64,000 nt of DNA from Neoroseomonas eburnea (GTDB lineage Bacteria > Pseudomonadota > Alphaproteobacteria > Acetobacterales > Acetobacteraceae): contig NZ_JAAEDL010000006.1 of assembly GCF_018129005.1 (NCBI RefSeq), positions 1 through 64,000 on the forward strand, read 5' to 3'. A program made the position numbers and the translations under genes. The notes beneath the pieces are model-generated. The model had not been told where the DNA came from and searched no databases. It saw only the letters and a list, made by a program, of their open reading frames with translations. The first letter of the stretch is position 1. Each line of letters starts with the position of its first letter. Below, piece after piece: positions 28,698-52,121 of this stretch.

Positions 28698-30245
28698 ATG
28701 GCGGGACGGCGGAACGTACTTCTCATCGTGGTGGACCAATGGCGCGCGGATTTCGTGCCCTGCCTGGGTGCGTCCTTCCTGCACACGCCGAATCTCGACC
28801 GACTTTGCCGCGAGGGTGTGACCTTCCGCAACCATGTCACCACCGCCGTGCCCTGCGGGCCGGCGCGCGCGTCGCTGCTGACCGGCCTCTATCTGATGAA
28901 CCATCGCGCGGTGCAGAACACGGTGCCGCTCGACGCGCGCCACATGAATCTTGGCAAGGCGCTCCGGCTCATCGGCTACGATCCGGCGCTCATCGGCTAC
29001 ACCACTTCGACCCCGGACCCGCGCACGACCGGCCCGCGCGACCCGCGCTTCACCACGCTGGGCGACCTGATGGACGGGTTCCGCAGCGTCGGCGCCTTCG
29101 AACCCTCCATGGACGGCTATTTCGGCTGGCTGGCCCAGAAGGGCTACAGGCTGCCGGAGCGCCGCACCGACATCTGGCTGCCCGAGGGAGAGGACGCCGC
29201 GCCCGGTGCGACCGACCGGCCCTGCCGCATCCCGTCGGAGCTCTCCGACAGCGCCTACTTCACCGAGCGTGCGCTGACCTATCTGAAGGGCAAGGGCAGC
29301 AAGCCGTGGTTCCTCCACCTCGGCTACTGGCGGCCGCATCCGCCCTTCGTTGCCTCGGCGCCTTACCATGCCATGTACCGGCCGGAGGACATGCCGGCGC
29401 CGATCCGCGCCGCGACGGCGGAGGAGGAGGCGGCGCAGCACCCGCTGCTCGGCCACTATCTCGAAGCGATCCGCCAGGCCTCCTTCTTCGAGCGCGCGGA
29501 CGGGCGCGGCGCCGAGCTCGACGGGCGCGAGATCGCACAGATGCGTGCCACCTATGCGGGCCTGATCAGCGAGGTCGACGACTGCCTCGGCCGCGTCTTC
29601 GCCTATCTCGACGAGACCGGCCAATGGGAGGACACGCTGGTGATCTTCACCAGCGACCATGGCGAGCAGCTCGGCGACCATCACCTGCTCGGCAAGATCG
29701 GCTACTTCGACGAGAGCTTCCGCGTTCCGCTGGTGGTGAAGGATCCCGACGCGCCGGAAGTCGGCGGCCGCATCGAGAATGCCTTCACCGAGAGCGTCGA
29801 CGTCATGCCGACCATCCTCGACTGGCTGGGCGGCGACATCCCGCGTGCCTGCGACGGGCGTTCAATCCTGCCCGTGCTGCACGGCAGCCGGCCGGCGGAC
29901 TGGCGGCGCTTCCTCTCCTACGAGTTCGATTTCCGCGACGTCTTCTATGACCAGCCGGAAGGGCGCCTCGGTCTCGGGATGGAGGAGGCGTCGCTGATGG
30001 TGGTGCAGGACGAGCGGCGGAAGTACGTGCACTTCGCCGCGCTGCCGCCGCTGTTCTTCGATCTCGAGAAGGACCCGCACCAGTTCCGCAACCTGGCGCT
30101 GGATCCGGCCCATGCGGTCGAGCTGCGCGACTACGCGCAACTCGCGCTGTCCCACCGCATGACGCATGCCGAGCGCACGCTCACGCATTTCCGCGCCACC
30201 CCGCACGGGCTGGAGAACCGGCTCGTTCCGACCACCACCGCCTGA
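28698..30245 (+). CDS. Phosphonate monoester hydrolase (sulfatase fold)
   Basis: The start ATG 28698 has AGGAG 10 bases upstream, giving 515 residues. The protein follows the known rhizobial and Burkholderia phosphonate monoester hydrolases closely: NVLLIVVDQWRADF, then VPCGPARASLLTGLYLMNHR with C53 as the residue converted to formylglycine (C-x-P-x-R), then AVQNTVPLD, PALIGYTTSTPDPRTT and TSDHGEQLGDHHLLGKIGY. These enzymes cleave phosphonate monoesters and also phosphodiesters, using metal ions and the formylglycine hydrate. No signal peptide is seen, so it acts in the cytosol on imported substrate. It heads a tight operon with three binding proteins. A formylglycine-generating enzyme must be encoded elsewhere. 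Confidence 0.88.
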   Translation: MAGRRNVLLIVVDQWRADFVPCLGASFLHTPNLDRLCREGVTFRNHVTTAVPCGPARASLLTGLYLMNHRAVQNTVPLDARHMNLGKALRLIGYDPALIGYTTSTPDPRTTGPRDPRFTTLGDLMDGFRSVGAFEPSMDGYFGWLAQKGYRLPERRTDIWLPEGEDAAPGATDRPCRIPSELSDSAYFTERALTYLKGKGSKPWFLHLGYWRPHPPFVASAPYHAMYRPEDMPAPIRAATAEEEAAQHPLLGHYLEAIRQASFFERADGRGAELDGREIAQMRATYAGLISEVDDCLGRVFAYLDETGQWEDTLVIFTSDHGEQLGDHHLLGKIGYFDESFRVPLVVKDPDAPEVGGRIENAFTESVDVMPTILDWLGGDIPRACDGRSILPVLHGSRPADWRRFLSYEFDFRDVFYDQPEGRLGLGMEEASLMVVQDERRKYVHFAALPPLFFDLEKDPHQFRNLALDPAHAVELRDYAQLALSHRMTHAERTLTHFRATPHGLENRLVPTTTA

Positions 30246-30264
30246 CGGACGGAGGAGAACACCC

Positions 30265-31887
30265 ATGCGTCTCGATCGTCGTTCCCTGCTTGCCGGCGGC
30301 GCCGGCCTTCTCGCGATGCCTCGCATCGCCATCGCACAGGCGGACCAGCGCCCATCCATCACGATTGCCGTGCAGAAGGTGAGCAACAGCAACACGCTGG
30401 AGCCTCTGCGTGAACAGTCCAATGTCGGCGAGCGCGTCTTCCTCACCTCCATGTGGGAAGGCCTGCTCGGCCGCGACTATGCGAGCCGCCTGGAGACCAT
30501 CCCGGTGCTTGCGGTCGAGAACCGCCGAATCAGCGACAGCGTCGTAGAGTTCAAGCTGCGTCCGGGCGTGAAGTTCCACAATGGCGATGAACTGACCGCC
30601 GAGGACGTCGCCTTCTCCTTCGGCAATGATCGCATGTTCGGCCCCGCCGGCCCGAACAGCGGCAGCACCATCCGCGTCGGTGAAGCCATGCCGACCAACA
30701 GCGGCAAGCAACTGCCGGTGGAAGTGCCGGCGGTCGCCAACCGCTCCTTCCCCGGCTTCGAGAAGATCGAGATCGTCGATCGCCACACGCTGCGCTGGAT
30801 CAACCGCACGCCGGACGTGACCCTCGAAGGGCGCCTGGCGCGCATCGGCAGCGAGATCGGAAGCCGTCGTGCCTTCGCCGAGGCGGCGACCTGGCTTGAA
30901 TGGGCGCGCAGGCCCGTCACCACCGGCCCGTACAAGGTCGCCGATTTCCGTCCCGACCATTCGCTGACGCTGGCCGCGCACGACGAATACTGGGGCGGCC
31001 GCCCGCCGATCCGCCAGATCCGCTTCGTCGAGGTGCCTGAAGTCTCCTCCCGCGTGAACGGCCTGCTGTCCGGCGAATACCAGTTCGCCTGCGACATCCC
31101 GCCCGACCAGATCGCCGGTATCGAGCGCAACGCGGCCTTCGAGGTGGTGGGCGGCACCATCCCGAACCACCGCCTCACGGTGTTCGACAAGAACCATGCC
31201 TCGCTGCGCAACCCGCTGGTGCGCCGCGCCTTCACGCACGCGATCGACCGGCAGGCGATCGTGGAGAGCCTGTGGGCAGGCCGCACCGAGATCCCCAAGG
31301 GCCTGCAATGGTCCTTCTACGGCGACATGTTCATCGCCGACTGGTCGGTGCCCCGCTACGATCAGACCGAAGCGCGCCGCCTGCTGCGCGAGGCCAACTA
31401 CCGCGGGGAGCCGATCCCCTACCGCCTGCTGAACAACTACTACACCAACCAGGTCGGCACCGCGCAGATCCTGGTCGAGATGTGGCGCCAGGTCGGCCTG
31501 AACGTACAGATCGAGATGAAGGAGAACTGGTCGCAGATCCTCGAACGCTCGCCCACCCGCGCCGTGCGCGACTGGTCGAACTCCGGCCTGTTCAGCGACC
31601 CGGTCTCCTCGCTGGTGAACCAGCACGGGCCGAACGGCCAGCAGCAGCAGGTCGGCGAATACGCGAACGAGGAGTTCAACCGCCTCTCGGTCGAACTCGA
31701 GACCAGCACCGACCGCGCCCGTCGCCGCGCCGCCTTTCAGCGCATGCTGGTGATCGCGGAGCGCGAGGATCCCGCCTATACGGTGCTGCACCAGAACGCG
31801 ACCTTCACCGCGAAGCGCAAGGACATCCGCTGGAAGGCCGCGCCGGCCTTTGCCATGGACTTCCGCGCGCAGAACTGGGGCGCCTGA
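30265..31887 (+). CDS. ABC solute-binding protein, family 5 (first of three tandem paralogues)
   Basis: The 540-residue protein starts at ATG 30265 behind GGAGGAG and has a twin-arginine-like signal (LDRRSLLAGGAGLLAMP). The mature part begins ADQRPSITIAVQKVSNSNTL and keeps the family-5 core LRPGVKFHNGDELTAEDVAFSF. It shares long stretches with the next two genes, such as YRLLNNYYTNQ and EMWRQVGLNVQIEMKENW. It is the most divergent of the three in residues about 50-90, where SMWEGLLGRDYASRLE replaces the Y-EMLIDTDW-type segment of the others, and in the 120-150 loop. It presumably binds a phosphonate ester or related compound in the periplasm. Confidence 0.85.
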   Translation: MRLDRRSLLAGGAGLLAMPRIAIAQADQRPSITIAVQKVSNSNTLEPLREQSNVGERVFLTSMWEGLLGRDYASRLETIPVLAVENRRISDSVVEFKLRPGVKFHNGDELTAEDVAFSFGNDRMFGPAGPNSGSTIRVGEAMPTNSGKQLPVEVPAVANRSFPGFEKIEIVDRHTLRWINRTPDVTLEGRLARIGSEIGSRRAFAEAATWLEWARRPVTTGPYKVADFRPDHSLTLAAHDEYWGGRPPIRQIRFVEVPEVSSRVNGLLSGEYQFACDIPPDQIAGIERNAAFEVVGGTIPNHRLTVFDKNHASLRNPLVRRAFTHAIDRQAIVESLWAGRTEIPKGLQWSFYGDMFIADWSVPRYDQTEARRLLREANYRGEPIPYRLLNNYYTNQVGTAQILVEMWRQVGLNVQIEMKENWSQILERSPTRAVRDWSNSGLFSDPVSSLVNQHGPNGQQQQVGEYANEEFNRLSVELETSTDRARRRAAFQRMLVIAEREDPAYTVLHQNATFTAKRKDIRWKAAPAFAMDFRAQNWGA

Positions 31888-31891: not shown

Positions 31892-33508
31892 ATGATGCCG
31901 CTGAGCCGCCGCGCGGCGCTGCTGTGTGCCGCTGCCGTCACCCTGCCGCGCCCGGGAATGGCTCAGGCAGATCAGCGGCCTTCCATCACCATTGCGGTCC
32001 AGAAGGTCGTCAACAGCAATACGCTGGAGATGGCGCGCGAGCAGTCCAACGTCGGCACGCGCGTCTTCAATTCCTACTCGGAGATGCTGATCGACACGGA
32101 CTGGATCGGCGATCTCTCGCTGCGGCCCGGCCTCGCCACTGCCTGGCGACGCATCGACGATCGCACGGTGGAACTCGACCTGCGTGAAGGCGTGCGCTTC
32201 CACAACGGCGATCTCATGACCGCGGAGGATGTCGCCTTCTCCTTCGGGCCTGACCGGCTCTGGGGTGCGGGAGGGCGGCAGGCGGGCGGCGCGCTTTTCG
32301 CCGGCGGTGCCGCCGGCGCCGCCGGCAAGGCACCGCCGCCGGAGGTCTCGGCTATCGCCCGTCGTACCTATCCGGGGTTCGAGCGCATCGAGATCCTCGG
32401 GCCGCACAAGGTCCGCTTCGTCAACCGTACGCCCGACATCACGCTGGAGGGCCGCATCGCGCGCAATGTCGGCCTGATCCTGTCGGAGCGCAGCTTCTCA
32501 GAGGCGGAATCCTGGCTCGCCTGGGCACGCCGCCCGGTGGGCACGGGGCCGTATCGCGTCGCGGAGTTCCGCCCCGATCGCGACCTGATGCTGGAAGCCT
32601 TCGACGAATACTGGGGGGGCCGGCCGCCGGTGCGCCGGATCCGCTTCGTCGAGGTGCCCGAGCCGGCGTCACGCGTGAACGGGCTGCTCTCCGGCGAGTT
32701 CGACTTCGCCTGCGACGTGAATCCCGATCAGATCGCGGATGTCGAGCGGAACCCGCGCTTCGAGGTGGTGGGCAGCACCATCACAAACCATCGCCTGACG
32801 GTGTTCGACCGCAACCATCCGCAGCTCCGCGATGCCCGCGTGCGTCGTGCCTTCACCCACGCCATCGACCGCCAGATGATCGTCGATGCGCTGTGGGCCG
32901 GCCGCACGCGCATCCCGAAGGGCCTGCAGTGGGACTACTATGGCGAGATGCTGCAGGCGGACTGGGCCGTGCCGGCCTTTGATCCGGCCGAGGCCCGCCG
33001 CCTTCTGCGCGAGGCCGGCTACCGCGGCGAGCCGATCCCCTATCGCCTGCTCAACAACTACTACACCAACCAGGTCGCGACCGCGCAGATCCTGGTCGAG
33101 ATGTGGCGCCAGGTCGGTCTGAACGTGCAGATCGAGATGAAGGAGAACTGGGCGCAGATCTTCGATCGCAATGCGCCACGTGCCGTGCGCGACTGGTCCA
33201 ACAGCGCGGTGTTCAATGACCCGGTCTCCTCGCTCACCGCGGCCTTCGGGCCGGAGGGGCAGAACCAGCAGGTCGGCGAGTGGCGCAACGAGGAATTCAA
33301 CCGCCTCTCCGTCGAGCTCGAAACCGGCACGGATCGCGCGCGTCGGCGGCTGGTGTTCCGCCGGATGCTCGAGATCGCGGAGCGCGAGGACCCCGTCTAC
33401 ACGGTCCTGCACCAGACGGCGACCTTCACCGCCAAGCGCAAGGACATCCGCTGGCGCGCGGCACAGTCCTTCCTGATGGATTTCCGCAGCAGCAACTGGG
33501 GGGCCTGA
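31892..33508 (+). CDS. ABC solute-binding protein, family 5 (second of three tandem paralogues)
   Basis: The 538-residue protein starts at ATG 31892 (or the next ATG at 31895), 4 bases after its paralogue. It has a signal ending PGMAQADQ, then RPSITIAVQKVVNSNTL and REGVRFHNGDLMTAEDVAFS. A low-complexity Gly/Ala insert (GGALFAGGAAGAAGKAPPP, near residues 132-150) sits where the first copy has a Ser/Thr-rich loop. The C-terminal half, including YRLLNNYYTNQVATAQILV, is nearly the same as in copies one and three. This points to tandem duplication followed by change in the ligand-contact lobe. Confidence 0.85.
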   Translation: MMPLSRRAALLCAAAVTLPRPGMAQADQRPSITIAVQKVVNSNTLEMAREQSNVGTRVFNSYSEMLIDTDWIGDLSLRPGLATAWRRIDDRTVELDLREGVRFHNGDLMTAEDVAFSFGPDRLWGAGGRQAGGALFAGGAAGAAGKAPPPEVSAIARRTYPGFERIEILGPHKVRFVNRTPDITLEGRIARNVGLILSERSFSEAESWLAWARRPVGTGPYRVAEFRPDRDLMLEAFDEYWGGRPPVRRIRFVEVPEPASRVNGLLSGEFDFACDVNPDQIADVERNPRFEVVGSTITNHRLTVFDRNHPQLRDARVRRAFTHAIDRQMIVDALWAGRTRIPKGLQWDYYGEMLQADWAVPAFDPAEARRLLREAGYRGEPIPYRLLNNYYTNQVATAQILVEMWRQVGLNVQIEMKENWAQIFDRNAPRAVRDWSNSAVFNDPVSSLTAAFGPEGQNQQVGEWRNEEFNRLSVELETGTDRARRRLVFRRMLEIAEREDPVYTVLHQTATFTAKRKDIRWRAAQSFLMDFRSSNWGA

Positions 33509-33511
33509 GCC

Positions 33512-35122
33512 GTGACCTCACTTCCTCGCCGCGCAGCACTCGCGGGCAGCGCCGCGCTCGTGCTGCCGCGCTTCGCCATCGCCCAGGCCGACCAGCGGCC
33601 GGTGCTGACCATCGCCGTGCAGAAGATCAGCAACTCGAACACCTTCGAACCGCCCCGCGAGCAGTCGAATGTCGGCTTCCGAATCTCCTATTCCTATGCG
33701 GAGACGCTGATCGATTCCGACTGGTTGGGCGATCTCGGCCAGGTGCCGGGTCTCGCCACCGCCTGGCGGCGCATCGACGACCGTACGGTCGAGTTCGACC
33801 TGCGCGAGGGCGTGCGCTTCCACAACGGCGACATCATGACCGCCGAGGACGTCGCCTTCAGCTTCGGTCCCGATCGCCTGTTCGGCACGGGGGCGGCCCC
33901 GGCCTCGGGCGGCATCACCGCCGGCGCGGCCTCGAAGGAGCCGCCGCGCGAGGTGACCGCGGTCGCCCGCCGCAGCTTCCCGGGCCTGGAGCGTGTCGAG
34001 GTCGTCCGCCCCGGCGTGGTGCGCTTCGTCAATCGCGTGCCCGATGTCACGCTGGAAGGTCGGATCGCGCAGAATGTCGGCGCCGTCTTCTCCCGCCGCG
34101 GCTTCGGCGAGGCGGCGTCCTGGCTCGCCTGGGCGCGCGCGCCGGTCGGTACGGGACCCTACCGCATCGCGGAGTTCCGGCCCGATGCGCAACTCGTGCT
34201 GGAGGCGCATGACGAGTACTGGGGCGGCCGCCCACCGGCCCGCCGCATCCGCCTGATCGAGGTGCCGGAGGTGTCGTCCCGGATCAACGGGCTGCTCTCC
34301 GGCGAATGCGACTTCGCCTGCGACATCCCGCCGGATCAGATCGCCGGCATCGAGCGGAATGCCCGCTTCGAGGTGCTGGGCAGCCCGATCAACAACCACC
34401 GCATCATCTGCTTCGATCGCGGCCATCCGCAGCTGCGCGATCCGCGGGTGCGCCGTGCCTTCACCCATGCGATCGATCGCCAGGCGATCGTGGACAGCCT
34501 CTGGGCTGGCCGGACCGTCGTGCCCAAGGGTCTGCAGCTCGAAAGCTTCGGGCAGATGTTCATCGGCGACTGGTCGGTGCCGAAGCATGATCCGGCCGAG
34601 GCGCGCCGTCTGCTGCGGGAAGCGGGCTACCGCGGCGAGCCGATCCCGTACCGGCTGCTCAACAACTACTACACGAACCAGACGCCCACCGCGCAGGTGC
34701 TGGTCGAGATGTGGCGCCAGGTCGGCCTCAACGTCCAGATCGAGATGAAGGAGAACTGGACGCAGATCACCGACCGCAACGGCCAGCGCGGCGTGCGCGA
34801 CTGGTCGAACACCGCGCTGTTCGGTGACCCGGTGGCCGCCATCCTGCGCGGCTTCGGTCCGAACGGCGAGATGCAGCTCAACGGGGAATGGACGAACGAG
34901 GAGTTCAATCGCCTGAGCGCCGTGGTCGAGACCTCGACCGACCGCGCCGCGCGCCGGGCCGCCTTCCGCCGCATGCTCGAGATCGCCGAGCGGGAGGACC
35001 CCGCCTATACGCTGCTCCACCAGGCGGCGACATTCACGGCCAAGCGCAAGGACATCGAATGGCGCGCGGCCAAGGCCTGGGCGATGGACTTCCGCGCCCG
35101 CAACCTGCGCTTCCCGGGATGA
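33512..35122 (+). CDS. ABC solute-binding protein, family 5 (third of three tandem paralogues)
   Basis: GTG start 33512, 536 residues, 3 bases after the second copy. The signal region SLPRRAALAGSAALVLPRF is twin-arginine-like, followed by QADQRPVLTIAVQKISNSNT. It is closest to the second copy through residues 50-150 (AETLIDSDWLGDL, PGLATAWRRIDDRTVEFDL). It differs near the end of lobe two (ITDRNGQRGVRDWSNTALFG) and at the C-terminus (ARNLRFPG instead of NWGA). Its stop overlaps the ATPase start as ATGA, tying the three binding proteins to the Dpp-type transporter. Confidence 0.85.
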   Translation: MTSLPRRAALAGSAALVLPRFAIAQADQRPVLTIAVQKISNSNTFEPPREQSNVGFRISYSYAETLIDSDWLGDLGQVPGLATAWRRIDDRTVEFDLREGVRFHNGDIMTAEDVAFSFGPDRLFGTGAAPASGGITAGAASKEPPREVTAVARRSFPGLERVEVVRPGVVRFVNRVPDVTLEGRIAQNVGAVFSRRGFGEAASWLAWARAPVGTGPYRIAEFRPDAQLVLEAHDEYWGGRPPARRIRLIEVPEVSSRINGLLSGECDFACDIPPDQIAGIERNARFEVLGSPINNHRIICFDRGHPQLRDPRVRRAFTHAIDRQAIVDSLWAGRTVVPKGLQLESFGQMFIGDWSVPKHDPAEARRLLREAGYRGEPIPYRLLNNYYTNQTPTAQVLVEMWRQVGLNVQIEMKENWTQITDRNGQRGVRDWSNTALFGDPVAAILRGFGPNGEMQLNGEWTNEEFNRLSAVVETSTDRAARRAAFRRMLEIAEREDPAYTLLHQAATFTAKRKDIEWRAAKAWAMDFRARNLRFPG

Positions 35123-38874: not shown

Positions 38875-38934
38875 GCGGCTGCTGCTGTCCGCGAGCACGA
38901 CCGGCGCGCGGTCATGGAGCTTCGAAAGGCTGTG

Positions 38935-40877: not shown

Positions 40878-40962
40878 CGCGGAATGGAAACATTTACGTC
40901 ACGCGCATGACTTCGGCTGTGGGCTACGCAGCCGCCGCACCTACGGATCGGGAGTTCCGAAC

Positions 40963-42004: not shown

Positions 42005-43142
<1,138 letters not shown>

Positions 43143-43150
<8 letters not shown>

Positions 43151-44838: not shown

Positions 44839-46260
44839 TCAGGACCGACGCAGCGCCGTCGGGTAGAAGCGGCCCGAGGGCGCGCGCATCGCTTCCAGCA
44901 CGAAACCGCCCGGCAGGTCGAGCACCTCGCGGTTCGGCGGCGCGTCCGCCGCAGCATCGAGCGCGGCGCGCAGCGGGCGGCCCTCCATCCCTTCGACCGG
45001 CAGCCCGAGCGCATGCAGCACGGTCGGCACGATGTCGGTCAGGTCCGCCGGTTCCTCGGCCACCGCACCGCGGCGGAACGGACCGCCCTCCATCACGAGC
45101 ACGGTGGCGAGTTCGGCGCGGTGCAAGCCGCCATGCATGCCGCCGCCCTCCGGCACGTCCGGCGCGTCGAAGGGCGCGAAGCCGGGCAGGCCCCATTCGT
45201 CCGGCGCTTCCTCGCCCGCGAAGGTCGCGACCAGGTCGGCGCTGCGTGCATGGGCGCTGCCGAGCAGGGCGAGCGGAACGGTGCGCCCCTCCGGCAGGAT
45301 GGACGGGTCGCGTGCCAGCAGCGGCCCCGCCCAATCCTGCGCTGCGAGGAAATCGGCGATCAGCGGCGCCAGCGCGGCATCGCGCAGCCAGATCCCGGGA
45401 GCGGCCGCCGGGGCCACCACCACATCGACCTCCGGCGCCATGCCGGTGCCGGCGCGGAAGCCTGCGCGTTGCAGTTCGGTGCGCAGGCAGCGCTTGCCGC
45501 GGCCGGTGACGTGGCCGTGGTCGGACAGCACGATGATGGCGATCTCCGCCGCATCGGGCTGTGCTTCGCGCCAGGCGCGGATGCGGCCGAGCACGGCATC
45601 CGCCGCGGCCAGCGCGTCGCGCGTCGCCGCCGCGCCGAGCCCACCCCAATGGAAGGAGATGTCGGGCTCCGACAGCCAGAGCAACGCCACGTCCGGGCGA
45701 TGCCGAGGCAGCACGTGCTCGAGCAGCACGCGTCCGGCGAATTCGACGCGCGGCGTATTCGGCATGCCATGGGCGGGCGTGGCGCCGAGCGCGGCGCGCA
45801 CCTCCTCTGCCGCCATGCCGGCGCTGTCCTCGACGTTCCAGCGGAAGCTGCCGAGGCGCTCCGCCGCCGGGTGCAGCAGCCGTGCCGCGCCCGCGGTCCC
45901 GGCGCTGACCAGCGCGAAGCGCCGGCCGGCAGGGGCCAGGCGCTCGGCCAGGCTCGGCCGCTGCAAGGGCGATTCCGCGCCCGCCGCCATGGCGAGAACG
46001 TCCTCCACCAGTTTGGTGCGCAACAGGCGGTCCGGCGCGACGGTGGCGTCGAACAGCGTGTTCGCCACCATGCCGTGGCCGCCCGGACGGCAGCCGGTGA
46101 TCAGCGAGGGCGTCGCCACCCGCGTCTCGGAGGGGAAGACGCTGCGCGCATTGGCGAAGCGCGTGCCCGCAGCGGCGAGCGCGAAGAGGTTCGGCGTCGC
46201 GGTGGCGTCCACCATGTCCGGACGCAGGCCGTCGAGGGCCACCATGATGACGCGGGTCAT
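44839..46260 (-). CDS. Alkaline-phosphatase-superfamily phosphodiesterase/hydrolase
   Basis: The 473-residue enzyme belongs to the nucleotide pyrophosphatase/phosphodiesterase branch. Metal ligand D10 lies in MVALDGLRPD. The nucleophile position T46 lies in VFPSETRVATPSLITGCRPG, and the metal residues in LLWLSEPDISFHWGG, VLSDHGHVTG and GGMHGGLHRAE. No signal peptide is seen, so it works in the cytosol. Phosphonoacetate hydrolase is a member of the same superfamily. In this context a phosphonate or phosphodiester substrate is plausible, but its identity is open. It lies 11 bases after the PHP hydrolase gene in the same operon. Confidence 0.8.
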   Translation of the reverse strand: MTRVIMVALDGLRPDMVDATATPNLFALAAAGTRFANARSVFPSETRVATPSLITGCRPGGHGMVANTLFDATVAPDRLLRTKLVEDVLAMAAGAESPLQRPSLAERLAPAGRRFALVSAGTAGAARLLHPAAERLGSFRWNVEDSAGMAAEEVRAALGATPAHGMPNTPRVEFAGRVLLEHVLPRHRPDVALLWLSEPDISFHWGGLGAAATRDALAAADAVLGRIRAWREAQPDAAEIAIIVLSDHGHVTGRGKRCLRTELQRAGFRAGTGMAPEVDVVVAPAAAPGIWLRDAALAPLIADFLAAQDWAGPLLARDPSILPEGRTVPLALLGSAHARSADLVATFAGEEAPDEWGLPGFAPFDAPDVPEGGGMHGGLHRAELATVLVMEGGPFRRGAVAEEPADLTDIVPTVLHALGLPVEGMEGRPLRAALDAAADAPPNREVLDLPGGFVLEAMRAPSGRFYPTALRRS

Positions 46261-46271: not shown

Positions 46272-47177
46272 TCAGCGTGCGATGAGCACGGGATTGGCCC
46301 AGGCGCGCCGCCCCTGCGCATCCGCGACGACGATGCGCGCGAAGCCGCCAGGCAGCAGCTTTCCGATCGGAAGCCGCACGCGCGTCTGGTTCGCCTGCAC
46401 CGACTGCACGGCGAGCGAGCCGCGGCCCAGCGCCATCACGCTCGCCGCCGGGGAGCAGGTGACCTCCACCTCATCCGTGCCCCAGGCGATGTCGTGGATC
46501 AGCGGCCCCTGGGTCGAGTAGAAGCGGCCGGACTTGATCGCTTCCAGCAGGGGCTCCGGCTCATTCGCCTCGGCCTTCACCATGAGCCAGCCGCCGAAGG
46601 CGTCGGGGCAGGCGAAATGGGCGTCGTCCACGGCGATCAGGTTGATGTGGCGTCCCTCCGCCAGGAGCAGGTCGGCCATGTAGACGCCGTCGCCGCGCTC
46701 GGTGCGGAGCTGGGAGGTGTGATTGTAGACCTCGACGGCATGGGCGCCCGGGATGCTGCGCGCATCCTCGATCGTCAGCGCGTACCAGGCGGGATGCGGG
46801 ATGGCGACGAAGGCGCCGGCGGCCAGCGCGCGCGCGGCAAGGGCCGGTCCGCTCTCCTCCGCGGCGGTCGGCGCGAAATCGGCAGGCAGGCCGACGGCGA
46901 GGATGTGCCACTGTTCCCCGAGCGCCGTCGCCGGGGCATGCAGTTCGGCGCCCAGGATCGTGGTGAAGCGGCTGGTGCGGTAGGGGCGCGTGTCCACGAT
47001 CGGGAAGCCGTATTTCGGCAGGAAGTGGTCGGTCAGGGCCAGGAAGTCGTAACCGGCGTCCCGATAGGTCGCGCAGACCGCCTCCGGCGCCAGCATGCCG
47101 TCGGACAGGGTGGAATGCGTGTGGATGTTGCCCTTCCAGAAGCGGCCGGGGCTGGTGAAGGCAGGATCGTGGACCAT
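46272..47177 (-). CDS. PHP-domain metal-dependent hydrolase
   Basis: The start ATG 47177 is chosen because AAGG lies 5 bases upstream; the frame is open to 47291, but that stretch is a palindromic repeat. The 301-residue protein has the PHP signature GNIHTHSTLSDG (H19, H21), then YDFLALTDHF, LGAELHA, FVAIPHPAW and VDDAHFACPD, so the metal site looks complete. A C-terminal beta-rich part (about 205-301) follows, as in CehA/McbA-type metallohydrolases. PHP enzymes hydrolyse phosphoesters; one type acts on the cyclic ribose phosphate of C-P lyase, but no C-P lyase genes are here. Role inferred: phosphoester hydrolysis of a PhnDEE-imported compound. Confidence 0.75.
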   Translation of the reverse strand: MVHDPAFTSPGRFWKGNIHTHSTLSDGMLAPEAVCATYRDAGYDFLALTDHFLPKYGFPIVDTRPYRTSRFTTILGAELHAPATALGEQWHILAVGLPADFAPTAAEESGPALAARALAAGAFVAIPHPAWYALTIEDARSIPGAHAVEVYNHTSQLRTERGDGVYMADLLLAEGRHINLIAVDDAHFACPDAFGGWLMVKAEANEPEPLLEAIKSGRFYSTQGPLIHDIAWGTDEVEVTCSPAASVMALGRGSLAVQSVQANQTRVRLPIGKLLPGGFARIVVADAQGRRAWANPVLIAR

Positions 47178-47307: not shown

Positions 47308-48075
47308 CTAGGGGCGGATGAGGCGCAGGCGGATCATCCGGCTTGCCAGGTCGATCGCCGCGACCATGGCAAGGATCATCAGCATGATAAAGGCGGCCTC
47401 GTCCCAGTTGTTGATGCGGATGCGGTCGGACAGCGCGAGGCCGATGCCCCCGGCGCCCACCACGCCGAGGATGGTGGCAGAGCGCGTATTCGATTCCAGC
47501 GTGTAGAGCACCTGGGAGAGCATCACCGGCGCCACCTGCGGCAGCAGCCCGAGCCGGATGGCGAGTCCACGCCCCGCCCCGGCGGCGCGGACCGCCTCGA
47601 CCTGGCGGCGGTCGGCCCCTTCCAGTGCCTCGGAGAACAACTTCGCCAGCGTGCCGGTGTCCGAGACGGCCAGCGCCAGGATGCCGGCGAAGGGCCCCAT
47701 GCCGACGGCGGAGACGAAGATCAGTGCCCAGATCAGCGCATCGATGCCGCGCAGCCCGTCGAAGATGCGCCTGGCCGAGAAGCGCAGCAGCGCCGAGCCC
47801 ACCACGTTCCCCGCGCCGAGCAGCGCCAGCGGCAGCGCCGCCACCGCCGCGAGCAGCGAACCGAGGAACGCCATCGCCAGGCTCTCGGCGAGCCCCTTCA
47901 GCAGGTCCGCGAAGGCCCCGCCGGGGGAAGGCGGCCACATCAGCGCGACCAGCCAGCCGAGCCGGCCCAGCCCGGTCCAGATGCGCTCCGGCGAGGCATC
48001 GATGCGCCACAGCCCGACCAGCAGCATCAGGAAGCCCGCACCGAAGATCAGCGGCGTGGCGGAAAGGCGGTTCAT
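47308..48075 (-). CDS. phnE: Phosphonate-type ABC importer permease (second PhnE)
   Basis: The start ATG 48075 overlaps the stop of the first permease gene as ATGA; 255 residues. It has about six helices. The EAA-type loop ADRRQVEAVRAAGAGRGLAI precedes LLPQVAPVMLSQVLYTLESN and the highly conserved TILGVVGAGGIGLAL of PhnE permeases. It should pair with the neighbouring PhnE to form the channel for the PhnD ligand. No ATPase gene (phnC) is nearby, which is unusual. Confidence 0.88.
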   Translation of the reverse strand: MNRLSATPLIFGAGFLMLLVGLWRIDASPERIWTGLGRLGWLVALMWPPSPGGAFADLLKGLAESLAMAFLGSLLAAVAALPLALLGAGNVVGSALLRFSARRIFDGLRGIDALIWALIFVSAVGMGPFAGILALAVSDTGTLAKLFSEALEGADRRQVEAVRAAGAGRGLAIRLGLLPQVAPVMLSQVLYTLESNTRSATILGVVGAGGIGLALSDRIRINNWDEAAFIMLMILAMVAAIDLASRMIRLRLIRP

Positions 48076-48929
48076 GCCGTGCGCGCCCCGAGCGCGCGCC
48101 GGCGCAGCGCGCCGCACAGCAGATCGATCGCCGAGACAGTCGCCAGGATCAGCACCAGGATGGCGGAGATGTCCTGGTATTCGAACTGGCGCACGGCGAG
48201 ATAGAGCTCCTCCCCGATGCCGCCGGCGCCGACGATGCCGAGCACGCTCGCTTCCCGCACGTTGATCTCGAAGCGCAGCAGGCCGAGAGAGAGCATGCCG
48301 GGCAGGGATTGCGGCAACACGCCGAAGCGCATCTGCGCCGCCCAGGCGCCGCCGGTGGCGCGCACCGCCTCCACCGGGCCGAGGGCGGCGTTCTCGTGTT
48401 CCTCGGCGAACAGCTTGCCGAGGGCGCCGGCGGTGTGGAGCGCGATCGCCAGCATGCCGGCGAAGGCGCCGAGGCCGAAGGCGTAGACGAAGACGAGCGC
48501 GAGGACGAGCGTCGGCACGGTGCGCGCGAACTCCAGGAACCGCCGCGCGGCTGCCACCGCCCAGGGCGGCGCCAGCGTCGCCGCCGCCGGGAAGGACAGC
48601 AGCAGCCCCGCCGCCGCTCCCAGCACGGTGCCGGCATAGGCGATCAGCAGCGTGTCGCCGAGTAGCGCCAGCCAGTCCGGGAAGCCCCACATCCAGTCGG
48701 CGAGATCGGCGCCCAGTGTTTGCGCGTGCAGCGGCGGCAGGGTGCGGCTGACATAGTCCCAGGCGAGCGGCAGGCCGCGGCCCAGCCGCGTGAGGCTGAC
48801 CTCACCCACCCAGCCGGCGGCGAGCACCGCGGCGAGGAAGGTGAGGCCGCCGAGCAGGAGACCGCGACGCCGCCGCGCGCGTGCCGCACGCCAATGGTCT
48901 TCCGCGGCAAGGACGGCGGCGCTGGCCAT
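48072..48929 (-). CDS. phnE: Phosphonate-type ABC importer permease (first PhnE)
   Basis: A 285-residue permease starting directly after the phnD stop. An Arg-rich cytosolic N-terminus precedes the first helix. The characteristic region is LGPVEAVRATGGAWAAQMRFGVLPQSLPG, shortened here as LGPVEAVRATGGAW, then LRFEINVREASVLGIVGAGGIGEEL in part (REASVLGIVGAGGIG). It is about 30 residues longer than the second PhnE because of a periplasmic segment after helix one (LPPLHAQTLGADLADWMWGF). Two permease subunits without an ATPase is the striking point. Confidence 0.88.
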   Translation of the reverse strand: MASAAVLAAEDHWRAARARRRRGLLLGGLTFLAAVLAAGWVGEVSLTRLGRGLPLAWDYVSRTLPPLHAQTLGADLADWMWGFPDWLALLGDTLLIAYAGTVLGAAAGLLLSFPAAATLAPPWAVAAARRFLEFARTVPTLVLALVFVYAFGLGAFAGMLAIALHTAGALGKLFAEEHENAALGPVEAVRATGGAWAAQMRFGVLPQSLPGMLSLGLLRFEINVREASVLGIVGAGGIGEELYLAVRQFEYQDISAILVLILATVSAIDLLCGALRRRALGARTA

Positions 48930-49841
48930 TCAGGACCGCCGCTCGCGCCGGCGCGCGGCGTTCTCCTCGAGGATCGCCATGATGTCCGCGTAGTCCTCGT
49001 GCCGGGCGGGCACAAGGCCGCGCGCGCCGGAGGACATCTCGCGGAACGCCTGGGCATCGCCTTGGGGCATCGCTGCCAGTGCAGCCGTCAACTCGGTGCG
49101 AAAGCTCTCGGGCAGGTCCATCCGCAGCACGATCGGGCTGTTGGGAATGAGCGGCGAACGCCAGATCACGCGGACCTGGCCATCCTGGATCATCCCCTTC
49201 TCCACCATGCGCTGGAAGGTGTTCCGGTTCTCGTTTGAATAGGCGACGACGGCCGCGTCGTAGGTGCCGTTGATCACCGCCATCACGCCCTGCTCGTGGC
49301 TGCCCGTGAAGCCGGTGCGGGAGAAGAAGGTGGCGGGGTCCATGCCCTGCCGGCGGAGGAACCAGCCCGGCACCTGGAACCCCGAGGTGCTGTTCGGATC
49401 GCTGAAGCCGAGCGAGCGGCCGCGCATGTCCTCGACGCGCTGGAAGGGGCTGTCCGTGCGTACGATCATGACGCTGTGGTAGCCTTCCATTCCCGCGTTA
49501 TCGAGGTAGCGGAAGACCGGGGCGACGCGCTCGCCCATGATGCGGCGGGCGAGGCCGTAGGAGGCCGGGCCGAGATAGGCGAGCTCGGCATGGCCGGAGC
49601 GCAGTGCCTCCACCACCGCCGCATAGTCGGTGCCGCGGAAGACGCGGCAGGGCACGCCGAGACTGCGCTGCATGTAGGCCTGGAATCCCTGGAGGCGGGC
49701 GACGGCATCGCGCTCGTTCTCCACCGAGATCATGCCGAAGCGCAGTTCCGGCACCTGCGCGCGCCAGTCCGACTGCGCGGCGGCGGCGGGCGGCAGCAGG
49801 GCAAGGGTCGGCAGGGCGAGTGCGGTGCGGCGGGTGATCAT
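48930..49841 (-). CDS. phnD: Phosphonate/phosphate-ester ABC importer binding protein (PhnD-like)
   Basis: The start ATG 49841 has AAGGAG 6 bases upstream; 303 residues with signal MITRRTALALPTLALLPPAAA. The mature protein shows PhnD features: LRFGMISVENERDAVARLQG, YLGPASYGLARR, SLGFSDPNSTSGFQVP and YSNENRNTFQRM. PhnD proteins bind phosphonates, phosphite or phosphate esters in the periplasm. Its operon continues with two phnE genes, a PHP hydrolase and a phosphatase-superfamily enzyme. This suggests the ligand is an esterified phosphorus compound that these hydrolases then open; the exact ligand is unknown. Confidence 0.85.
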   Translation of the reverse strand: MITRRTALALPTLALLPPAAAAQSDWRAQVPELRFGMISVENERDAVARLQGFQAYMQRSLGVPCRVFRGTDYAAVVEALRSGHAELAYLGPASYGLARRIMGERVAPVFRYLDNAGMEGYHSVMIVRTDSPFQRVEDMRGRSLGFSDPNSTSGFQVPGWFLRRQGMDPATFFSRTGFTGSHEQGVMAVINGTYDAAVVAYSNENRNTFQRMVEKGMIQDGQVRVIWRSPLIPNSPIVLRMDLPESFRTELTAALAAMPQGDAQAFREMSSGARGLVPARHEDYADIMAILEENAARRRERRS

Positions 49842-49895
49842 GGGCGGCTCCTTGGTCGGGACGGCGCCGGGTGCCACGCGGCCCGGGACCTCCCG

Positions 49896-49924
49896 ATGAC
49901 GGATCGGTGAAGAAGCCGTGACGT
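49896..49924 (-). promoter_or_regulatory. Candidate Pho box upstream of phnD
   Basis: On the minus strand three 7-base units, ACGTCAC, TCTTCAC and CCGTCAT, are each separated by 4 bases, giving the 11-base period of PhoB-binding direct repeats (consensus CTGTCAT). The site ends 55 bases upstream of the phnD start, a suitable place for activation under phosphate starvation. Matches to consensus are partial, so this needs a matrix score. Confidence 0.5.
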
Positions 49925-50054
49925 CGGGAAGGGCCGATCGGCAACGTCGAGCGGGGGCGCGAACGCCCCCTTCGGCTGCGGCCCTCCTGCAGACCTCGAT
50001 CGGGTGGGATCGCCCGATCGGCTGCAGCCGTCCGAACCAGCAAGGGCTTCGAGC

Positions 50055-50096: not shown

Positions 50097-50112
50097 AAGA
50101 CTCTGATAGCGA

Positions 50113-50130
50113 GCCAGCCGATAGGCTGGC
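50113..50130 (-). terminator. Short hairpin directly after phoX
   Basis: GCCAGCC and GGCTGGC form a 7-bp stem with a 4-base GATA loop, starting 5 bases after the phoX stop on the minus strand. It is the first of two hairpins and a likely intrinsic terminator; no strong T-run follows. Confidence 0.5.
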
Positions 50131-50135
50131 CGGTA

Positions 50136-52121
50136 TCAATCGCCGATCGGACCGCCGTCCTTCTTCACGATGGCGATCACCGACGGTCGCGGCGGCACGC
50201 CCTCGGCGAAGTCCGGCCAGCGTGTGGACGGGCGCTCGAAGGTGGAACCGCTGTCCTCGCCCGGGTGCTGGATGGCGAGGAAGATCGTGCGGTCATCCGG
50301 CGTGAAGAGCGGCCCGCAGACCTCCGCACCGGTCGGGGCCTGATAGAACAGCCGCGTCAGGGCACGGCCGCGGCCCGTGGTGTCGGCTGCGTAGAGGCCA
50401 TCCGCTACCCCCGCCGCCGACGGCGCGCCGTCGGTGGCGATCCAGATCCGGCCCTTGCTGTCGAAGGCGCAGTTGTCGGGGCAGGACAGCCAGCCGTTCG
50501 GGCTGGTGGCGCGGTGATACTGCGCGCCGGCGTCGATGCCCGGTGCACCGGCGACGAGGAAAAGGCCCCAGCGCATCTCCTTCGCGGCGTGGTCCACCTC
50601 CGCCGTGCCGGCACCCGGCGGGATGATCTCCACCACATGGCCCTGGGTGTTGCGCGCGCGGGGATTCGCGGCATTGACCTGCTGCGCCGTGCGGCGGTCG
50701 TTGTTGGTCAGGATGACATAGACGCGGCCCGTCGTCTTGTTCGGCTCGACATCCTCCGGCCGGTCCATCGGCGTCGCGCCGAGCAGGCTCGCCGCCTGAC
50801 GGGCATTGATCACGACGTCGCCCTGGTTGCGGAAGCCGTTGGCTTCGGTGAGCGGCCCCTGGCCATGCACCAGATCCAGCCACTCGACCTTGCCGTCATC
50901 CGACAGCTTCGCGACAGACAGCGTGCCTTCGTCCAGCAGGTCGCGGTTGGCGGCGCGGTTCTGCCGGTCGAAGGGCCGGGCGGTGACGAAGCGGTAGACG
51001 AACTCGAAGCGCTCGTCGTCGCCCATGTAGATCACCACGCGGCCATCCTTGCTGACGGCGTGGTGGCAGCCCTCATGCTTGAAGCGACCGAGGGCGGTGC
51101 GCTTCACCGGCTCGCTGGTCGGGTCATAGGGGTCGAACTCAACGACCCAGCCGAAACGGTTCGGCTCGTTCGGCTCCTTGCCGAGGTCGAAGCGTTCCAT
51201 GTGCTGCGGCCAGGAATACCAGGCATTCTGCGTGATGCCGTAGCGGCGCCAGGCGGCATGCTGCGGGTTCTGCTGGTTGGCCGCCTCGGCGCCGCCGAAA
51301 TAGCCGTTGAAGTTCTCCTCGGCGGTCAGCACCGTGCCCCAGGGCGTATTGCCGCCGGCGCAGTTGTTGAGCGTGCCGAGCACGCGCAGCCCGGTCGGGT
51401 CGGCGTTGGTCTTCAGCTTCTCATGCCCCGCCGCGGGGCCGGAGACGCGGATCGGCGTCTCGCCGGTGATGCGGCGGTTGAAGCGGCTCTCCTTCACGTA
51501 GGACCAGCGGCCGTTCTGCTTGCGGATCTCGACGATGGACATGCCATGGGCAAGCAGCTCGGTCTTCGCCTGTTCGGCACTCGCGCGCACCGAGCCGGTG
51601 CGGCCCGAGGGCAGGCCCGGCCACATCAGCGCGGTGTTGGTGTATTCGTGGTTCACCGCCAGCAGGCCGTGGTCGGAGCCGCTGTTTCCCTGCGGCAGGG
51701 GGAAGAAGTCCAGGTAGTCGTTGTTGTAGCCGAACTGCTTCGCCTGGGCGTCCGGCGTGCTGCGGCCCGGCACGAAGTCCGGCGCATCGGCGAGGATCGG
51801 GTCGCCCCAGCGGATCACCGTCTGGACCTCGTAGCCCTCGGCAACCGCTTCGGTCTGGGCGAGCTGGTGGCGGATCTCGGGGAAGCTCAGGGTGGAGGGG
51901 CCGCCCGCGCGGGGGACGCCCTGCGCCTCGGCCTCGCCCGGCAGGGCGCCGGCGGCGAGTGCCGCGGCCGCCGCCCCGGCGCCGAACAGGGCGCGGCGGC
52001 CGTAGCGCGCCTCGATGATCTCGCCGATCGGCCGGCGGGGATCGGGGTTGGAGGTGCCGAGTTCTTCCGAAGCGTCGATCTTGGCGTCCTCGGGGATCGG
52101 GGCTGTGTGCATATCGGGCAT
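50136..52121 (-). CDS. phoX: PhoX-family alkaline phosphatase
   Basis: The 661-residue protein has a long N-terminus with a twin-arginine signal around R42-R43 (YGRRALFGAGAAAAAL), so it is exported folded to the periplasm. The PhoX (DUF839) beta-propeller features are AVNHEYTNTALMWP, GRWSYVKESRFNRRITGETP (short: ESRFNRRITGETP), NNCAGGNTPWGTVLTAEENF and GRFKHEGCHHAVSKDGRVV. Conserved segments QYHRATSPNGWLSCPDNCAF and AIQHPGEDSG lie near the end. PhoX enzymes use calcium and iron to strip phosphate from organic esters under phosphate limitation. It sits between the phn and sox operons, divergent from soxB. Confidence 0.9.
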   Translation of the reverse strand: MPDMHTAPIPEDAKIDASEELGTSNPDPRRPIGEIIEARYGRRALFGAGAAAAALAAGALPGEAEAQGVPRAGGPSTLSFPEIRHQLAQTEAVAEGYEVQTVIRWGDPILADAPDFVPGRSTPDAQAKQFGYNNDYLDFFPLPQGNSGSDHGLLAVNHEYTNTALMWPGLPSGRTGSVRASAEQAKTELLAHGMSIVEIRKQNGRWSYVKESRFNRRITGETPIRVSGPAAGHEKLKTNADPTGLRVLGTLNNCAGGNTPWGTVLTAEENFNGYFGGAEAANQQNPQHAAWRRYGITQNAWYSWPQHMERFDLGKEPNEPNRFGWVVEFDPYDPTSEPVKRTALGRFKHEGCHHAVSKDGRVVIYMGDDERFEFVYRFVTARPFDRQNRAANRDLLDEGTLSVAKLSDDGKVEWLDLVHGQGPLTEANGFRNQGDVVINARQAASLLGATPMDRPEDVEPNKTTGRVYVILTNNDRRTAQQVNAANPRARNTQGHVVEIIPPGAGTAEVDHAAKEMRWGLFLVAGAPGIDAGAQYHRATSPNGWLSCPDNCAFDSKGRIWIATDGAPSAAGVADGLYAADTTGRGRALTRLFYQAPTGAEVCGPLFTPDDRTIFLAIQHPGEDSGSTFERPSTRWPDFAEGVPPRPSVIAIVKKDGGPIGD

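Follow-up and report, generated by a model that had tools for sequence, protein, structure and literature searches.

An apparently mosaic gene cluster with three importers in a Neoroseomonas-group bacterium resembles a phosphate-starvation kit

Three importers and several phosphorus-releasing enzymes are encoded side by side in a bacterium of the Neoroseomonas group, and together they look like a phosphate-starvation kit. Based on the gene families, the conservation of operons and of binding residues, and the Pho-box-like sites computed for the 64,000-nucleotide stretch of DNA analysed here (the window) and for its relatives, the best explanation, which we consider reasonably probable, is a phosphate-starvation scavenging cluster assembled from separate modules, combining three importers with intracellular ester cleavage.

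Results

Gene calls and profile searches of the window placed all the genes named in a preliminary description of this DNA between 28.7 and 52.1 kb, in the order given there (Table 1). The description had also reported no PhnW and no C-P lyase genes, which holds for the locus but not for the genome: elsewhere it encodes phnJ (C-P lyase) as well as a PhnW-like gene, which scored 338 bits with PRK13479 (cut-off 296) and stayed under the cut-offs of TIGR02326 and TIGR03301.

Table 1. Features of the 23-kb cluster, in window coordinates
Feature	Position	Strand	Basis
Pho-box-like triple direct repeat (11-bp period), 5' of PehA	28626..28654	+	Trained-model ranks
PehA, predicted phosphonate monoester / phosphodiester hydrolase, formylglycine-type	28698..30245	+	NF045661, 963 bits (cut-off 900); 2w8s; motif; N-terminus
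AccA-like substrate-binding protein 1 (SBP1), RR-type export signal by eye	30265..31887	+	AccA 4ra1, 259 bits; DppA, 73 bits
AccA-like substrate-binding protein 2 (SBP2)	31892..33508	+	8ch1, 278 bits
AccA-like substrate-binding protein 3 (SBP3)	33512..35122	+	4ra1, 268 bits
Importer ATPase, OppD type	35119..36084	+	Profile search
Importer ATPase, OppF type	36081..37067	+	Profile search
Importer permease B	37067..38002	+	Profile search
Importer permease C	38002..38874	+	Profile search
Putative FAD-dependent (N-methyl)aminoethylphosphonate oxidoreductase, PbfD-type	38914..40059	+	TIGR03364, 438 bits (cut-off 285); family function from PMC10590968
phnX, phosphonoacetaldehyde hydrolase	40056..40877	+	TIGR01422, 323 bits (cut-off 220); sequence
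Pho-box-like repeat 5' of PhnS2	40885..40902	+	Trained-model ranks
PhnS2, aminoethylphosphonate-type binding protein	40963..41982	+	TIGR03261, 404 bits (cut-off 393)
PhnT2 ATPase, start approximate	42005..43150	+	TIGR03265, 457.0 bits (a hair under cut-off 457.7)
PhnU2, double-length permease	43143..44837	+	TIGR03262, 739 bits (cut-off 593)
NPP-like alkaline-phosphatase-superfamily (AP) hydrolase	44839..46260	-	PF01663, 98 bits; NPP structures, 52 bits
PHP (CehA/McbA-like) metallohydrolase	46272..47177	-	NF038032, 73 bits (just under cut-off 80); conserved residues
PhnE permease, start approximate	47308..48075	-	TIGR01097, 256 bits (cut-off 217)
PhnE permease	48072..48929	-	TIGR01097, 255 bits (cut-off 217)
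PhnD binding protein	48930..49877	-	TIGR03431, 269 bits (cut-off 261); PhnD structures, 103 bits
Pho-box-like triple direct repeat 5' of PhnD	49885..49913	-	Trained-model ranks
PhoX alkaline phosphatase, RR-type export signal by eye	50136..52121	-	PF05787, 542 bits

PehA exceeded the curated cut-off for its family (phosphoric/sulfuric ester hydrolase) and carries the formylglycine motif CxPxR, as CGPAR at residue 53; two PF03781 (FGE-type) genes of the kind that this formylglycine needs were over cut-off in the genome. The best solved structure match was 2w8s (E 7e-266), its solved relatives bear the name phosphonate monoester hydrolase, and a signal peptide was not seen by eye. We predict that PehA hydrolyses phosphonate monoesters or phosphodiesters, and enzymes of this kind are said to act on both (PMC5649143). 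They serve as models of catalytic promiscuity (PMC5488252). Aside from a marine suggestion that polysaccharide esters may be where a PehA-related enzyme releases phosphonates from (PMC5649143), no established physiological role for them was met in the literature consulted.

The census of PehA comprised 80 loci kept from 296 confirmed matches. An AccA-like binding protein and a full ABC set directly followed PehA in 65 of the 68 loci whose downstream sequence reached 8 kb or more; the 12 loci with less than 8 kb lie outside this count, and in 10 of them the binding protein still adjoins PehA. PehA-importer loci came mainly from Acetobacteraceae and Rhizobiales.

In the window, the importer after PehA comprises three SBP_bac_5-type binding proteins, two Opp-type ATPases and two Opp-type permeases. 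The preliminary description had labelled it Dpp-type, missing the relationship to AccA, which is the better fit: SBP1-3 matched AccA with 259–278 bits, against 73 bits for SBP1 and DppA. AccA was by far the nearest solved relative of SBP1 and, at E <= 1e-60, the only protein listed for all three (for SBP2 and SBP3 the structure searches covered matches at E <= 1e-60 only, and the DppA figure is for SBP1 only). For the control, the window's other family-5 binding protein, AppA/DppA-type proteins came first.

AccA is the agrocinopine binding protein, with sugar phosphodiesters as ligands; N54, Y375, Y376 and S419 contact the phosphate and N284 contacts OH1 (PMC4526662). These five residues (AccA numbering) are unchanged in SBP1-3 and in 119 of 119 binding proteins of PehA loci, themselves chosen by similarity to SBP1-3, and N54 and N284 match Asn in the control as well. 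The numbering uses an offset of 28 counted in alignments, by which nine residues of PMC4526662 fit and Glu504 lands on Trp. Such conserved contacts do not prove ligand identity, and the pyranose contacts of AccA are not kept: E510 is replaced by F in 103 and W in 16 of the 119 proteins, and SBP1, SBP2 and SBP3 have F, F and W there and I, N and N at W178. Because of these changes we call the importer AccA-like and do not claim an agrocinopine importer.

The acc system of Agrobacterium consists of the AccA-AccBCDE importer, the phosphodiesterase AccF and the phosphatase AccG. PehA-type operons share with it an ABC importer served by a binding protein of the AccA family, the conserved phosphate contacts and, as the proposed next step, cytosolic splitting of the imported phosphodiester. 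Unlike acc, they encode one to four binding proteins, have PehA or an NPP-like hydrolase at the place of AccF, replace the sugar-contacting Glu510 by Phe or Trp, and carry Pho boxes that point to how they are controlled.

The FAD enzyme and PhnX both exceeded their model cut-offs. The two genes adjoin in the window, as they do in all 18 related loci, and the window phnX ATG overlaps the FAD gene stop. TIGR03364 members of the PbfD type oxidise 2-aminoethylphosphonate (AEP) or N-methyl-AEP to phosphonoacetaldehyde, and pbfD clusters without phnW are already published (PMC10590968), so a lack of PhnW, which the preliminary description had counted towards an unusual combination, is not out of the ordinary for an FAD enzyme of this kind. 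The predicted pair is the known PhnW-independent PbfD-PhnX route: as in the published account of that route, a TIGR03364 flavoenzyme gene overlaps phnX and phnW is not beside them. The difference here lies in the neighbours, with two importers and a PehA operon flanking the route. The PhnS2T2U2 importer resembles the AepXVW / PhnS2T2U2 importer of PMC8316502 in gene content, with one binding protein, one ATPase and one permease, and adjoins phnX. Expression of P. putida AepX is PhoBR-dependent (PMC8316502).

PhnD and the two PhnE permeases scored over their model cut-offs, as in a PhnCDE phosphonate importer, and PhnD structures were the nearest solved relatives of the window PhnD. Unlike in PhnCDE, PhnC, PhnD and PhnE are not encoded together. 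An ATPase search found no phnC or other ATPase gene beside PhnDEE in 13 of 13 loci (the window and 12 related), and two phnC genes over cut-off lie elsewhere in the genome; the conserved set, if working, must borrow an ATPase from another locus. PhoX gave no NCBIfam match beyond its Pfam assignment.

Neither the NPP-like AP hydrolase nor the PHP hydrolase showed a signal peptide by eye, and their AlphaFold 2 models (mean pLDDT 58 and 52, respectively) were of too low quality to be used in fold comparison; a sequence search gave no solved relative of PHP. Of the 11 genomes with both PehA and an orthologue of AP (at least 50% identity), 9 had the two no more than 20 kb apart. The PHP residues HxH, TDH, HP and DDAH were invariant in 13 aligned close relatives. 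Relatives of 42–57% identity occur on plasmids, several annotated as CehA/McbA family and two others as phosphotransferase. PHP neighbours were counted in 18 loci from 21 PHP genomes, the window and two short pieces (G089, G090) being left out. In 8 of the 18 loci a gene resembling an HD oxygenase lay within 10 kb (TIGR03276 membership was checked on one protein). PHP also lay near phnX or phnA-phnY-psrA on two rhizobial plasmids, near phnF and aepX on a third, and near C-P lyase genes on a Haematobacter plasmid. We rejected the idea that PHP belongs with PhnDEE, as no PhnDEE orthologue was beside PHP in the 18 family loci and HD-oxygenase-like genes and importers were commoner neighbours. Many relatives, but not all, showed the hydrolases in linkage with importers or phosphonate genes: the stretches inspected around S. 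meliloti AP and Streptomyces PHP held no Opp-type importer or phosphonate neighbours.

The Pho-box half-site consensus is CTGTCAT. A scan of the window by consensus alone was rejected as decisive: its best site was 5' of PhoX/soxB, no importer site stood out, and the PhoX/soxB-side site gained no support from a model trained on relatives. Among 127,922 window positions, the trained model ranked the sites 5' of PhnD, PehA and PhnS2 at 1, 2 and 5, and therefore control by phosphate starvation is probably common to the three importers. The PhnD site kept rank 1 with a PehA-only and rank 2 with a PhnS2-only model. The PehA site ranked 4 with the PhnS2-only model and was missed (rank 392) by a model from 8 PhnD sites. 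The PhnS2 site was weaker, with ranks 7, 11 and 16 in models without PhnS2 sites, two of which shifted it by one 11-bp period. Models of the 18-bp core only gave lower ranks (e.g., 28 and 56 for PhnS2, 22 and 27 for PehA). In training, identical 40-mers were counted once and sites scoring < 9.6 dropped; loci with PehA at least 85% identical were left out for the cross-model ranks and kept for the model giving ranks 1, 2 and 5.

Sites scoring at least 10.2 were present in 24/79 upstream regions of PehA, 9/19 of PhnS2 and 8/10 of PhnD, against 0–0.8% of shuffles and 0–1% on the reverse strand; the FAD upstream regions had such a site in 0/19. The PhnS2, PhnD and FAD sets each include the window as one row, the loci behind the PehA, PhnS2 and PhnD counts are relatives of one another and not independent, and six loci (L199, L200, L223, L232, L253 and L257) are also genus genomes, thus falling in two sets. 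Upstream of PhoX no convincing Pho box was found, the best site having rank 33 with the trained model. Joint phosphate control of the importers, whose absence the preliminary description named as a ground against a unified system, is thus borne out by sites before all three operons, in the window (PhnS2 more weakly) and in relatives, as far as sequence can tell.

Conservation of the cluster fared less evenly: relatives combine these modules in several different arrangements, but none of those examined had the whole 23-kb set. In N. soli the FAD-phnX-PhnS2T2U2 cassette is missing and the modules on either side of it adjoin directly; we read the cluster as a mosaic, with the cassette lying between these modules. 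PehA and FAD lay within 30 kb in 3 of the 20 family genomes with both (the PehA matches include six genomes at only 46–51% identity). They were linked in 7 of 14 genus genomes, G205 being clearly unlinked and the other six having them on separate, mostly short contigs. Among the 80 PehA loci, some cut by contig ends, FAD/phnX was within ~10 kb in three. The PehA operon and PbfD-PhnX were contiguous in three genomes (the window, G206 and G230).

Discussion

Substrates, the direction of flow between modules, the cell compartment, PhoB binding and the ATPase partner of PhnDEE are those we infer. At low phosphate, PhoB would act at the boxes before PehA, PhnS2 and PhnD, and the three importers would be made. 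The AccA-like ABC importer, with its three binding proteins, would take up intact phosphodiesters and/or phosphonate monoesters, whose ester bond cytosolic PehA, NPP-like and PHP hydrolases would split to yield a phosphonate or phosphomonoester. PhnS2T2U2 would import aminoethylphosphonates; the PbfD-type flavoenzyme would convert AEP and N-methyl-AEP to phosphonoacetaldehyde, and PhnX would cut the C-P bond, with no need for PhnW. PhnDEE, with an ATPase encoded elsewhere, may take up phosphonates or phosphate-like anions, and PhoX would act outside the cell on phosphomonoesters. That the cell imports esters, frees the phosphonate and cleaves the C-P bond, as first described, is supported in part by the Pho sites, recurring modules and hydrolase links; the substrates are inferred, and no relative examined had the 23 kb as one unit.

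We tentatively propose that PehA and the AccA-like importer form a widespread, Pho-controlled system of Acetobacteraceae and Rhizobiales that imports intact phosphonate monoesters for de-esterification in the cytosol, and that phosphonate monoester hydrolases have this as their physiological role. Candidate esters, plausible but short of probable, are AEP or 2-hydroxyethylphosphonate bound to sugar or glycerol, with polysaccharides or lipids as their source. In the window this system would be joined to C-P cleavage of AEP/N-methyl-AEP and to the NPP-like and PHP hydrolases, and in other genomes these two may often belong to operons built alike, each pairing an importer with a hydrolase. If true, phosphonate monoester hydrolases would have a natural job, and bacteria a way to use esterified phosphonates without extracellular cleavage. 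The near-invariant PehA-importer operon, the Pho boxes and the AccA-like phosphate pocket raise a pointed question, namely which ester the binding protein holds.

It is rather unlikely, though by no means negligible, that the system instead scavenges plain phosphodiesters, metabolically separate from the aminophosphonate route and near PbfD-PhnX through shared Pho control only. The substrates of the AccA-like importer and PehA/AP would then be glycerophosphodiesters, sugar phosphodiesters and nucleotide fragments, which we likewise think unlikely. The ligands of AccA (PMC4526662), the scarcity of PbfD-PhnX beside PehA operons and the separable cassette in N. soli fit such scavenging. However, the solved relatives of PehA go by the name of phosphonate monoester hydrolases, a kind said to act on both esters (PMC5649143), phosphonate genes neighbour PHP in several relatives, and three genomes have PbfD-PhnX directly next to the PehA operon. 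A common importer of di/oligopeptides or nickel, standing beside PehA by chance, is far less credible. Its ATPases and permeases are of the Opp/Dpp/Nik type, but SBP1-3 reached only 112–136 bits against the Opp5A/NikA model NF045468 (cut-off 600), far below their AccA scores, and the strict linkage to PehA and the Pho boxes also argue against it; we rejected a peptide importer identity, AccA being far closer than Dpp.

PhoCDET is a type of phosphate importer. That PhnDEE is of this type, or a degenerate set without function, and not a phosphonate importer, we regard as doubtful. No ATPase gene lies beside it, and its neighbours are lipid-remodelling-like in nine related loci (with two genes between in G219) and PhoX in the window, which speaks for this reading. 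Against this, PhnD exceeded the PhnD model cut-off and is nearest to PhnD among solved structures. In addition, D, E1 and E2 are ~70–80% identical within the genus and strong Pho boxes precede them in 8/10 loci, from which we conclude that the set is not decaying.

A separate observation in relatives was a D-2-hydroxyacid dehydrogenase gene adjoining a Phn-type ABC set, which could be PtxD-like or PbfF-like.

Gene Content of the Cluster

Codon-usage gene calling and family searches confirmed all of the genes that the preliminary description had placed at 28.7–52.1 kb. The plus strand encodes PehA (a phosphonate monoester/phosphodiester hydrolase), three family-5 binding proteins (SBP1, SBP2 and SBP3), two ATPases, two permeases, a PbfD-type (TIGR03364) FAD oxidoreductase, phnX and PhnS2T2U2, and the minus strand encodes PhoX, PhnD, two PhnE permeases, a CehA/McbA-like PHP hydrolase and a hydrolase of the alkaline phosphatase superfamily (AP; PF01663) that is similar to NPP enzymes. 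The FAD and phnX genes share an ATGA overlap. Because, when read by eye, no export signal was visible at the N-termini of PehA, AP and PHP and RR-type signals were present on the family-5 binding proteins, PhnD and PhoX, the first three enzymes are probably cytosolic and PhoX is probably exported.

The surrounding genome comprises 5.86 Mb in 89 contigs. Its PehA has close named relatives in Neoroseomonas soli (90% identity) and N. alba (87%), which probably places the genome in this group of Acetobacteraceae. The statement that PhnW and C-P lyase genes are missing held for the locus and failed for the genome, as a PhnJ (C-P lyase) gene and a PhnW-like gene are found elsewhere, along with two phnC genes over the cut-off and two PF03781 genes. 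PbfD-type enzymes are described as converting AEP and N-methyl-AEP to phosphonoacetaldehyde, and some of the known clusters lack phnW (PMC10590968). Features outside the cluster are listed in the table; soxB was also observed near AP and PHP in another genome (G104).

Coordinates of the cluster and of additional features in the same genome
Feature	Location	Strand	Observation
Cluster under study	window 28698–52121		
Sarcosine-oxidase-like genes	window 52386–57438	+	Adjoin PhoX; soxB TIGR01373 668 bits, cut-off 529
Second Opp-type importer	window 57476–62936	+	
Family-5 binding protein of second importer	window 61281–62936		Matches AppA/DppA-type, not AccA; served as control
Second PhoX-family match	G000:C11:65804–67048		Weaker, 119 bits

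The PehA-Associated Importer

The importer encoded 3' of PehA had been called Dpp-type but is better described as AccA-like. SBP1, SBP2 and SBP3 matched AccA, the agrocinopine/agrocin-84 binding protein, at 259–278 bits, far above the 73 bits of SBP1 with DppA, and scored 112–136 bits with the Opp5A/NikA model NF045468 against a cut-off of 600. The ligand of AccA is pyranose-2-phosphate, whose phosphate is contacted by N54, S419, Y375 and Y376 and whose sugar OH1 is held by N54, E510, N284 and S419, as reported in PMC4526662. We located these residues in the alignments by shifting the numbering by 28, a shift that nine residues fit and the paper's Glu504 does not.

N54, N284, Y375, Y376 and S419 were unchanged in SBP1–3 and in all 119 binding proteins of PehA loci, which had been chosen by their similarity to SBP1–3. 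The E510 position was Phe (103) or Trp (16) in those 119 proteins and likewise Phe or Trp in SBP1–3, and the M372 position was Leu in all of them. The control family-5 protein did not keep Y375, Y376 or S419, and its N54 and N284 positions align with Asn. Two binding proteins associated with PHP retained N54 only and none of the five contacts, respectively; of two associated with AP, one from Bradyrhizobium retained four of the five and one from Roseibium Y376 only. A Roseibium binding protein adjoining a PehA-like gene kept all five. In PehA operons, the phosphate pocket thus appears to be preserved and the sugar pocket altered, a combination that suggests an AccA-like importer whose ligand would be another phosphodiester or a phosphonate ester.

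The pairing of PehA with this importer was highly conserved. Among 80 named PehA loci, the best 80 of 296 matches, 68 had at least 8 kb downstream, and 65 of these had a binding protein adjoining PehA and a whole ABC set (the exceptions were L241, L246 and L252). Full operons carried one to four binding proteins and ranged over Acetobacteraceae, Rhizobiales and a few other Rhodospirillales; the same neighbours surround PehA on pRL9 of Rhizobium johnstonii 3841. No report tying PehA to an AccA-like importer was found in the titles and abstract openings of the open-access papers listed by the searches, and the link may be new. We consider the conserved PehA plus AccA-like importer to be the newest part of the cluster. 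A PMH-like enzyme has been suggested, in PMC5649143, to release phosphonates from marine polysaccharide esters. Directly 5' of PehA, a D-2-hydroxyacid dehydrogenase gene (PtxD-like or PbfF-like) was seen after PhnC, PhnD and PhnE-type genes in G225 C293 (L085/L086), G219 C46 (L095) and L257.

The AP and PHP Hydrolases

An AP-type hydrolase gene was present in 20 of the 80 PehA loci, often directly 3' of the last permease. Of 200 Acetobacteraceae genomes, 48 had PehA (six at only 46–51% identity), 41 had AP (20 at 50% identity or more), 21 had PHP and 49 had FAD. AP at 50% identity or more lay less than 20 kb from PehA in 9 of the 11 genomes with both, the other two having them on different contigs. 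More distant AP relatives (35–37% identity) adjoin Opp-type importers on Roseibium and Bradyrhizobium plasmids; the S. meliloti relative lies among aminotransferase genes, with no Opp-type importer in the stretch seen.

On Agrobacterium and Ensifer plasmids, PHP lies behind Opp-type importers near phnX or phnA-phnY-psrA. In R. leguminosarum it follows a phnF-headed importer and has aepX nearby, and in Haematobacter it follows another ABC set, with phnK, phnL, phnN and a phnM-type gene in the vicinity. AccA-like importer genes or a binding protein were near PHP in two family loci (L041 and L046), and an HD oxygenase-like gene was within 10 kb of PHP in 8 of 18. A Streptomyces plasmid copy had no importer or phosphonate neighbours of these kinds within the stretch examined. 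Because of these neighbourhoods and the Streptomyces exception, the linkage of PHP to phosphonate genes is repeated, not universal.

The one HD oxygenase-like protein searched, from G206, scored 226 bits with TIGR03276 (cut-off 215). Such genes adjoin AP or PHP in G104, G205 and G206 (L032, L079/L080 and L075/L076, respectively), whereas the window has no such gene separating AP from PHP. On NZ_CP016290.1 (L288) and NZ_CP128602.1 (L105), phnF-bearing importer-plus-hydrolase operons had genes for a CDP-alcohol transferase and a nucleotidyltransferase nearby, and L288 also had aepX. This arrangement would fit genes for the synthesis of phosphonolipids or phosphonoglycans lying next to scavenging genes.

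Arrangement of Modules in Relatives

FAD was found in 18 and PehA in 20 of 35 genus genomes, with both in 14. Seven of these had the two genes within 30 kb, one (G205) had them clearly apart, and six had them on separate, mostly short contigs; G203, with a cut PehA at a contig end about 4 kb beyond PhnD, was left out of this count. In the 200-genome family set, only 3 of 20 genomes with both had them within 30 kb (the window, G097 and G197).

The genes phnX and PhnS2T2U2 followed FAD in all 18 related loci, one of which ends within PhnU2 at a contig end. What lies convergent to PhnU2 varied: PhnEE(D) in 11, AP in three (G208, G230 and G206), an HD oxygenase-like gene with PHP in one (G205), none of these in two (G211 and G204) and a contig end in one (G202). 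In the window, AP-PHP-EED-PhoX occupies this position. The PehA operon, the FAD-phnX-PhnS2T2U2 cassette and AP directly adjoin one another in three genomes: the window's own, G206 and G230. In N. soli, the PehA operon abuts AP-PHP-PhnE across a gap of about 300 bp, without the cassette, and in two further loci (L207 and L235) PhnDEE is directly 5' of the PehA operon, PhoX being directly 3' of the one in L207. These varied arrangements mark the cluster as a mosaic whose modules have been joined repeatedly. The gene 5' of FAD in 11 loci, all from a single clade, encodes a protein of about 465 residues identified by eye as secreted and phytase-like (esterase-like).

Predicted Pho Regulation

As Pho-box consensus we assumed pairs of the half-site CTGTCAT 11 bp apart. 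Coding-strand scores were enriched over dinucleotide shuffles upstream of PehA (79 sequences, mean 9.48 versus 7.75), PhnS2 (19, 10.06 versus 7.71) and PhnD (10, 10.72 versus 8.11), these upstream sequences being related rather than independent and their equally related reverse strand having high sites in 0–1%. No enrichment was found upstream of FAD (19, 7.48 versus 7.73), and PhoX had no convincing Pho box. The 24 PehA sites scoring at least 10.2 lay 64–110 bp 5' of the start.

With a 40-bp model trained on relatives, the window's PhnD, PehA and PhnS2 sites ranked 1, 2 and 5 of 127,922. In cross-gene models, from which the closest PehA loci were left out, a PehA-only model ranked the PhnD site 1 and the PhnS2 site 11, and a PhnS2-only model ranked the PhnD site 2 and the PehA site 4. 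The PhnD-only model (8 sites) ranked PhnS2 7 and missed the PehA site (392). Models of the 18-bp core were weaker across genes (PhnD 1–3, PehA 22–27, PhnS2 28–56), and worse with the 8-site model. From these predicted sites, the PehA, PhnS2 and PhnD operons are probably under Pho control. Because 40 bp separate the last permease from FAD, we infer that FAD-phnX is probably transcribed from the PehA promoter. Aminoethylphosphonate importers, described in PMC8316502 as one binding protein, one ATPase and one permease, are PhoBR-dependent in P. putida. As a whole, the locus is a modular organophosphorus cluster, probably under Pho control.

PhnDEE without PhnC

No PhnC-type ATPase gene adjoined the PhnD orthologue (at least 59% identity) in any of 13 loci, the window included, one of which ends at a contig edge on one side. 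A full phnCDEE set is on contig C2 of the same genome, and because its PhnE proteins are 52% and 60% identical to those of the window, its PhnC is a candidate ATPase partner of PhnDEE. In nine related loci (L083–L096), genes read from sequence as a glycosyltransferase and a PlcP-like phosphoesterase lie 5' of PhnD, with a diacylglycerol-kinase-like gene beyond; the PlcP-like protein matched no family over the cut-off in the family search. These genes may possibly serve phosphate-starvation lipid remodelling. In G219, two other genes lie between PhnD and the glycosyltransferase/PlcP-like pair.
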